Positions 42,034-62,624 of a DNA stretch of 64,000 bases are shown here, in pieces; position 1 is the first letter of the stretch, and every line of letters starts with the position of its first letter. The stretch lies in assembly GCF_003967195.1 (NCBI RefSeq), contig NZ_AP018725.1, forward strand, positions 1,798,001 through 1,862,000, given 5' to 3'. This DNA is from Sulfuriflexus mobilis. GTDB taxonomy: Bacteria; Pseudomonadota; Gammaproteobacteria; AKS1. The notes below the pieces were generated by a model that saw only the letters and a list, made by a program, of their open reading frames with translations, ran no database searches and was not told where the DNA came from. The position numbers and the translations under genes were made by a program.

Positions 42034-42148
42034 AAAAGCCCAACGCAGAGACGCGAAGACGCAGAGAACGCAAAGTAATTGCCCGTATTACATTCATTTT
42101 TAACTTCTCTGCGGCCTTTGCGCCTCTGCGTCTTTGCGTTGGGCCTTT
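42034..42148. repeat. CGCAGAG/CGCAAAG palindromic element, copy 1
   Basis: Two imperfect arms of about 42 bases face each other across some 28 AT-rich bases. The left arm reads AAAAGCCCAACGCAGAG and continues with GCGAAGACGCAGAG words; the right arm is its near complement, ending in TTGCGTTGGGCC. The arms consist of repeated seven-base words related to CGCAGAG or CGCAAAG. It lies between the convergent HDOD and lysS genes and could act as a terminator for both. Confidence 0.85.
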
Positions 42149-59684: not shown

Positions 59685-59916
59685 AGCCCAACGCAGAGTC
59701 GCGAAGACGCAGAGGTTCGCAAAGAAAACAAATATAAGTAAGGGCAGCTTATCTTTAATTCGGCTGAAGGTTGTATTCGAAATAAAACTAACAATGAACT
59801 CGGTTTTTCTATCTTTTACACCCTCTGCGTTCTTTGCGTCTTCGCGCGATGTTCAGGATGAATGAGTGTCGCGAAGTGCATGGACGCACGAGAGCGACCC
59901 TCTGCGTTGGGCTTTT
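59685..59916. repeat. CGCAGAG/CGCAAAG palindromic element, copy 2
   Basis: The left arm (59685-59726) begins AGCCCAACGCAGAGTCGCG; its complement occurs as two parts on the right, 59821-59846 (CCTCTGCGTTCTTTGCG onward) and 59899-59916 (CTCTGCGTTGGGCT). About 50 unrelated bases (roughly 59848-59898) interrupt the right arm, and some 95 AT-rich bases form the middle. It occupies nearly all of the gap between convergent Smr and truD genes. Confidence 0.85.
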
Positions 59917-62488: not shown

Positions 62489-62518
62489 TATCTGCGCCCA
62501 AATAAACTAAAGAATTTG

Positions 62519-62624
62519 ACGCAAAGAGCGCAAAGGCGCAGAGGCCGCAGAGGAAGATAAATAAAAGAACTTTATATCCATAAATCCCTTTGCGTCCTCT
62601 GCGCCTTTGCGAGCTCCGCGTTAA
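62519..62624. repeat. CGCAGAG/CGCAAAG palindromic element, copy 3
   Basis: The left arm (about 62519-62554) contains GCGCAAAGGCGCAGAGG and its near complement lies at 62586-62624, with about 30 AT-rich bases between. The arms share the seven-base words of copies 1 and 2 but lack the outer GCCCAAC/GTTGGGC cap. Unlike them it lies between two genes in the same direction, eno and ftsB. Confidence 0.8.

Follow-up and report, generated by a model that had tools for sequence, protein, structure and literature searches.

Word-array palindromes are widespread in the intergenic DNA of environmental bacteria, and their origin and role are not agreed. One of them lies between an HDOD-domain gene and lysS in a 64,000-nucleotide stretch of the Sulfuriflexus mobilis genome, the whole of which was analysed here and is referred to as the window. 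An initial annotation of the window had described this palindrome as one of three copies of a dispersed family and had suggested a role in bidirectional termination, or else a preferred landing site. The question raised by the locus is what these palindromes are and how they came to occupy their sites. The genome of the window (G000) was compared with three same-genus relatives (G001, G002 and the sister species G003) and with loci and genomes from other bacteria.

Architecture of the copies in the window

The three copies are built on one plan, an inverted pair of arms, each of three to four degenerate heptads (CGCNRAG) with spacers of 1-2 nt, enclosing an AT-rich loop (Table 1). The initial annotation had read copy 1 as a capped palindrome with repeated heptads, an AT-rich centre and a mirrored arm, and this description was confirmed; the other two copies proved to be real, with refined boundaries. 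It had also placed two of the three at convergent genes, which is the case for HDOD/lysS and smr/truD, the third being in tandem, from eno to ftsB. The lack of kinship among the loops, the fixed heptad spacing and the cap subtypes, described below, go beyond that annotation, as does the link to GxxExxY genes. RNA folding, which it had named as a check, was strong for copies 1 and 3, at -54 to -60 kcal/mol on either strand and with z of -7.5 to -9.8 against shuffled sequences. Neither an Rfam scan of the window nor a comparison of copy 1 with plasmids gave a match.

Table 1. Coordinates of the three elements and their parts within the window.
Feature	Position	Strand	Remarks
Copy 1, whole element (GCCCAA cap to TTGGGC cap)	42038..42144	.	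between HDOD-domain gene (+) and lysS (-)
Copy 1, 5' arm CGCAGAG-a-CGCGAAG-a-CGCAGAG-aa-CGCAAAG	42044..42075	+	four heptads, spacers 1-1-2
Copy 1, AT-rich loop, 31 nt	42076..42106	.	unrelated to loops of other copies
Copy 1, mirrored 3' arm	42107..42138	-	four heptads
Copy 2, GCCCAA-capped element	59686..59912	.	between smr (+) and truD (-); 8-11 bp spacer in relatives
Copy 2, 5' arm	59692..59724	+	
Copy 2, 3' arm, inner three heptads	59823..59846	-	
Copy 2, insertion of second repeat family (CGATGTTCAGGATGAAT...), 53 nt, within 3' arm	59847..59899	.	
Copy 2, 3' arm, outermost heptad, separated by insertion	59900..59906	-	
Copy 3, element without GCCCAA cap (TTTGACGC...GCGTTAA)	62516..62624	.	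between eno and ftsB, both - strand; 25-30 bp spacer in relatives
Copy 3, 5' arm, spacers 2-1-2	62520..62552	+	
Copy 3, mirrored 3' arm	62588..62620	-	

The repeat inserted in copy 2 (CGATGTTCAGGATGAATGAGTGTCGCGAAGTGCATGGACGCACGAGAGCGACC; 59847-59899) also lies in the arms of no fewer than three further elements. It adjoins the G000 elements at 2649742, 2870447 and 2873222, and in several elements its insertion point is a heptad boundary, as if it targeted the arms.

A dispersed family in the genome

A genome-wide count had been proposed as a check. The sequence ACGCRRAGNNGCRRAG, with at most one mismatch, matched G000 at 73 positions, as against 22 for the reversed control, while the strict three-word pattern CGCRRAGNCGCRRAGNNCGCRRAG gave 40 matches against none. 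A census of 829 kb of G000, taken around the ACGCRRAGNNGCRRAG matches and over ten other stretches, yielded at least 36 elements, all in intergenic spacers or over weak small ORF calls, which bears out the family; the true number may slightly exceed 36, because elements without a ACGCRRAGNNGCRRAG match outside the surveyed stretches would be missed.

Full arms in G000 consist of four heptads with spacers of 2-1-2 (33 nt) or 1-1-2 (32 nt), the left arm reading CGCNRAG and the right arm its mirror. The positions C-G-C--AG are invariant, and the words follow one another at a regular 8-9 bp on both strands. The outer caps fall into the subtypes GCCCAA, GAGTNNNTAA and CTGGAANNNAA, together with a three-word type. 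No homology was found among the loops of G000 elements beyond nested REP-like repeats; the arms stay conserved while the loops drift. Such nested repeats include one of 84 bp common to the loops of the elements at 396694 and 540431 (L063, L066; 92% identity), a GTCGGATTAGCG type at 722945 and 826905, and CCCTCACCC...GGGAGAGGG at 406505.

Covariation of the arms, as a proof of base pairing, was rejected overall, the likeness of arms within an element being 394 as compared with 390.6 between elements (sd 4.9); two core positions were the exception. Among the 14 elements of G000 whose arms are full 2-1-2 arrays, which include copy 3, position 4 of the outermost heptad tends to differ between the arms, being identical in 0.29 of these elements where 0.56 was expected, a weak tendency.

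Gain of elements within the genus

Ten G000 sites were compared via their flanking genes in G001-G003, at about 65-80% DNA identity over most matched stretches. At nine of the ten, the heptad element was absent from every readable same-genus genome, and several of the spacers measured 8-15 bp as against 109-357 bp in G000. The tenth site (893876) is occupied in G003 by another heptad element and in G001 by an inverted repeat built on a separate word (GACAGGATTAACAAGATTTACATGATT...). As G000 could be the outgroup, polarity was tested in the reverse direction, from G003. Two G003 loci carry AGATCTAACGC-capped elements, the first of which is absent from G001, G002 and G000 and the second from G001 and G000 (G002 not being comparable). 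Thus the element-free sites, together with the polarised G003 loci, establish that copies have been gained, and the site polymorphism that the initial annotation had envisaged is supported. CCATA flanks one G003 insertion on both sides and was not seen elsewhere by eye; inspection by eye gave no clear target-site duplication.

Other arrays were observed at some of these positions. Inverted repeats of RGATTWACA fill the same spacers as the G000 elements at 893876 and 2870447 (L252 in G001 and L250 in G003), and this word also flanks a gene of the GxxExxY family, introduced below, in L338. In G002 (L249), the spacer corresponding to 2870447 holds a third palindromic word array, GTTAGGGGTAAGGAGTGAAG...CCTAACTCCTAAC. 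In G003 (L046; G003:C43, about 1782), a capped arm seems to stand alone, with no clear mirrored arm beside it.

A GxxExxY gene framed by the arms

Loci fetched by the heptad from other genomes contained small ORFs, with the motif LGPG[LF]LExxY, flanked precisely by a forward arm on one side and a reverse arm on the other. These ORFs belong to the GxxExxY family (TIGR04256; PF13366, PDDEXK_3), with E values of 1e-36 to 1e-42. The association was then approached from the protein side with 31 GxxExxY genes fetched by HMM alone, blind to repeats, and scored for a CRCNRAG arm in the 250 nt before the gene and for a mirrored arm after it. Arms were present on both sides of 18 of the 31 genes, on one side of six and on neither side of seven, as compared with 0/1,122 and 5/752 control ORFs of similar size (5/1,874 in all; Fisher p 4e-31). 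Five of the seven loci scored as having none have arms built from CRCNGAT, a sister word, with spacers of 3 nt. In a set restricted to one genome per family, inverted tandem-word arms, some judged by eye, were found at eight of nine GxxExxY loci, including L338, whose arm word RGATTWACA is also a gene-less repeat in G001. At the level of genomes, GxxExxY was present in 12/16 of those with the strict pattern and in 45/283 of the others (p 8e-7, kinship ignored), a value that overstates independence since the sample is dominated by one family, f82.

All 33 aligned GxxExxY sequences have the active-site residues D, E and K, and dN/dS was 0.04-0.25 in pairs with measurable dS, showing at the sequence level that the protein is under purifying selection. 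No solved structure was found for GxxExxY by sequence. An AlphaFold model (pLDDT 92) has a PD-(D/E)XK fold, its best match being SSO0001 (4ic1; Z 10.0), of the Cas4 family, with Hjc resolvase at Z 7.2. Nuclease activity is predicted, a common fold not being proof of function. A tree of 38 GxxExxY proteins unites the five that have CRCNGAT arms in a single clade (support 100/99), and the arm-word labels require three changes as against a mean of 6.8 for shuffled labels. The five CRCNGAT cases and most of the CRCNRAG cases belong to a single host family (f82), and thus the word follows the protein and not the host.

The literature searched, mostly outside subscription journals, gave neither a function for GxxExxY nor a link to inverted heptad arrays, and nothing relevant on the heptad words themselves. 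The link is new in this analysis, although an earlier report may exist.

A GxxExxY-like gene, apparently without the E-x-K motif and without heptad arms, was seen between lexA-like and dinB/umuC-like genes (L341 in G046), and the G000 element at G000:C1:2649742 lies between the orthologous lexA/dinB-type pair; the match of junctions was dismissed as a single coincidence.

Placement relative to genes and the question of termination

Eleven of the 36 G000 elements lie between convergent genes, 24 between tandem genes and one between divergent genes, against a background, in G000 spacers of at least 20 bp, of 79 convergent, 385 tandem and 87 divergent. Convergent sites are enriched (p about 0.01-0.03) and divergent sites depleted (p 0.03-0.0004), the values varying with the minimum spacer length. 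The siting between convergent genes that the initial annotation had emphasised therefore holds as a modest enrichment (11/36) but not as a rule, 24/36 being tandem. At tandem sites the median distance is 25 nt to the stop codon upstream and 37 nt to the start that follows (p 0.02), a slight bias that fits both selection against harm and a role at 3' ends.

In the GCCCAA-capped subset the elements end in tracts like GGGC(C)TTTT, in many cases at both ends, and for most other caps a T-tract is not clear. Judged by sequence, the pattern of an intrinsic terminator, a G+C-rich hairpin followed directly by a T-tract, fits much of the GCCCAA subset and does not clearly fit the other caps.

Complete elements, in which the arms frame a GxxExxY gene, are co-directional inside operons. 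The junctions, with flanking proteins named by eye, were trpD-trpC (14), trpE-trpG (4, in different classes), sufB-sufC (3), bluB-cobyric acid synthase (3), ribF-ileS (3, both word types), pyrB-pyrC (2), pheA-hisC and thyA-folA. The ribF-ileS junction holds CRCNRAG- and CRCNGAT-type GxxExxY elements in different genomes (L327, L315, L332), suggesting independent insertions at a single junction. The junctions of G000 elements are not generally those of complete elements; at ileS, the G000 element lies at the opposite end of the gene.

The elements could be envisaged as intrinsic (bidirectional) terminators, or as hairpins stabilising 3' ends, that multiplied for their usefulness past stop codons. 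The strong folding on both strands would suit such a role, as would the nearby upstream stop, the convergent enrichment and divergent depletion, the tracts of the GCCCAA-capped subset and the conservation of arms beyond that of loops. However, a mobile element under selection against harm predicts the same location bias, the stems are at least 30 bp long with loops of up to about 250 nt, a clear T-tract is missing in most other copies, and several of the same sites are hairpin-free in relatives, with the 8-15 bp spacers mentioned above. Arms of the same element match no better overall than arms of different elements, which argues against selection for pairing. Moreover, strong terminators inside operons would be polar on the next gene, so that the complete relatives within operons such as trpD-trpC and sufB-sufC would speak against a general role of the arms in termination. 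Bidirectional termination, as initially suggested, thus did not hold up generally, and we consider this explanation unlikely for the family, while termination by the GCCCAA-capped subset is possible from its sequence.

Distribution across bacteria

Stretches of GTDB contigs with an exact 24-nt arm pattern numbered at least 117 and came from Pseudomonadota, Desulfobacterota, Bacteroidota, Planctomycetota, Acidobacteriota, Chloroflexota, Verrucomicrobiota, Nitrospinota and Spirochaetota, and the initial annotation was right in placing repeats of this kind in many environmental bacteria. Over these multi-phylum loci, with the retrieving triplets left out, neighbouring words were spaced by 1 or 2 nt in 284/348 pairs as compared with 17/38 for reversed words. 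The strict pattern was present in 16/299 genomes of a phylum sample dominated by f82 (131 matches against one control match). The distribution is sporadic across many phyla and patchy even within a genus, and it comes with genome-specific dialects, such as CGCAGAGGCGCAGAGGACGCAGAG in G334 and CGCAAAGCCGCAAAGAACGCAAAG in G176 and G212. In some other genomes dispersed copies are alike in their loops as well as their arms, and thus whole units have been copied there; arms were more conserved than loops in five of six dispersed homologous pairs. Gene-less and complete copies with the same words and caps occur together in G334 and G017.

It could be argued that the elements are binding sites of a host nucleoid protein or global regulator, as Aklujkar et al. 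proposed for Geobacter metallireducens. The regular word spacing on both strands and the invariant C-G-C--AG positions would be in keeping with a bound protein, and published class 2 paired sites, of consensus TCTCCGTS[Y], are of the same design (PMC2700814). Yet no host protein is known to read the heptad words, the distribution is patchy even within a genus, and the arm words track the nuclease family across phyla rather than the host, so that we find this proposal hard to credit.

An alternative origin would be as MITEs of an ordinary insertion sequence, or as REPINs moved by a RAYT (Y1) transposase, with GxxExxY an unrelated passenger. Short dispersed palindromes are typical of both, and Y1 transposase genes are present in G000 and several carriers. 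A MITE of a DDE insertion sequence would have terminal inverted repeats in common with a transposase-coding copy. Inverted arms are present, and GxxExxY is the only gene found framed by them, and repeatedly so, among the loci read, where no arm-framed transposase was noticed; the stronger of the two G000 Y1 genes has no heptad flanks; and G334, with 11 pattern matches, has no Y1 gene (HUH, PF01797) at E <= 1e-3, on which ground RAYT was rejected as the partner. An origin of this kind seems to us very improbable. The Y1 (RAYT-type) gene seen without heptad flanks in G000 lies at L284 4063-4917 (G000:C1:2059062-2059916).

Proposed origin of the elements

In our estimate it is somewhat more likely than not that the copies in the window are gene-less, non-autonomous forms of a palindromic mobile-type element with arms recognised by the GxxExxY nuclease, recognition and mobilisation being the inferred part. 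The defining part of such an element would be its inverted arms of three to four degenerate CRCNRAG heptads with spacers of 1-2 nt, bounded by an outer cap that varies with the genome; the complete copies of other genomes have a single small gene between these arms, coding for GxxExxY, the predicted PD-(D/E)XK nuclease. This enzyme would bind its own arms as duplex repeats, as an extruded hairpin or as single strands at a fork, and would promote the copying of the arm-loop-arm unit into intercistronic sites, by analogy with the cognate enzyme that serves REPINs. In G000 the enzyme may have been lost or never kept, and persisting copies would be found mostly just past stop codons, where insertion harms least.

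The weak point of the nuclease model is that the enzyme is absent where activity is recent enough to be seen. A genome-wide search of G000, remnants included, gave no GxxExxY match at E <= 1e-3, nor did the sequence between the window arms, and the same threshold gave none in G003 (80% complete) despite its gained copies. Thus the gene may have disappeared once the copies had spread, or else their movement depends on another factor. In the larger sample, G208 (9 matches) and G275 (7 matches) likewise carry the strict pattern without GxxExxY. As no two G000 loops are related, whole-unit copying is established for other genomes only, and the GxxExxY protein could be cargo.

Beyond the window, these elements may represent a new class of prokaryotic mobile element that crosses phyla, with a GxxExxY PD-(D/E)XK nuclease gene framed by the inverted word arrays it recognises, co-evolution of word and protein, gene-less swarms and a niche at the intercistronic junctions of operons; we advance this tentatively, as a little short of an even prospect. 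If it is true, one superfamily would take in other common intergenic arrays (CRCNGAT, RGATTWACA) as well. The tie to a named family with a conserved nuclease active site turns unexplained repeats into a testable problem of enzyme and substrate, and offers a candidate function for GxxExxY proteins, so far named merely for their motif. It also suggests that trp, suf, pyr and other operon junctions are recurrent sites of selfish elements.

Comparison with known systems

Integron attC sites have the ends RYYYAAC...GTTRRRY. The GCCCAAC...GTTGGGC cap fits these ends, and a long imperfect stem with a variable loop is a further likeness, but only the GCCCAA cap subtype fits, the other caps do not, and the stem is a heptad array.

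With REPINs and their RAYTs, the elements have in common dispersed intergenic palindromes, non-autonomous copies, and a complete form or partner gene encoding a nuclease-type enzyme. They differ in having heptad-array arms instead of GTAG-tagged hairpins and in framing a PD-(D/E)XK gene instead of a Y1 transposase; in the listed elements, no GTAG or CGTC tag was seen by eye at the arm ends, where the caps are GCCCAA, GAGTNNNTAA, CTGGAANNNAA or AGATCTAA.

The TAACTGA heptamers of Beggiatoaceae, Cyanobacteria and Bacteroidetes are likewise intergenic and patchy across phyla, with suspected horizontal transfer (MacGregor 2015, PMC4679880). In contrast to the heptad elements, they are direct repeats of another word by start codons, almost never inverted and with no associated gene described (PMC4679880).

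The paired tandem-word sites of G. metallireducens were proposed for IHF/HU-type proteins in global regulation and were called unique to that genome; those of class 2 comprise three tandem repeats of TCTCCGTS[Y], paired on opposite strands at variable distance (Aklujkar et al. 2009, PMC2700814). The reverse complement of this consensus contains ACGGAG, in keeping with a heptad CACGGAG plus 1-2 nt. The paired design fits, but the words here are CGCNRAG and usually number four per arm, and no gene link or site gain was described for the Geobacter sites, whereas the heptad elements have the GxxExxY link and spread across phyla.

The gene between the arms belongs to the GxxExxY family (TIGR04256, PF13366), and the link to heptad arrays is what sets it apart from the family as known in the literature searched. 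As GxxExxY-framing heptad elements, defined here, the window copies have arms of CRCNRAG, the class also admitting sister words, and lack the framed gene; since none lies between their arms or, at E <= 1e-3, elsewhere in G000, we infer that they are gene-less derivatives of the complete form.
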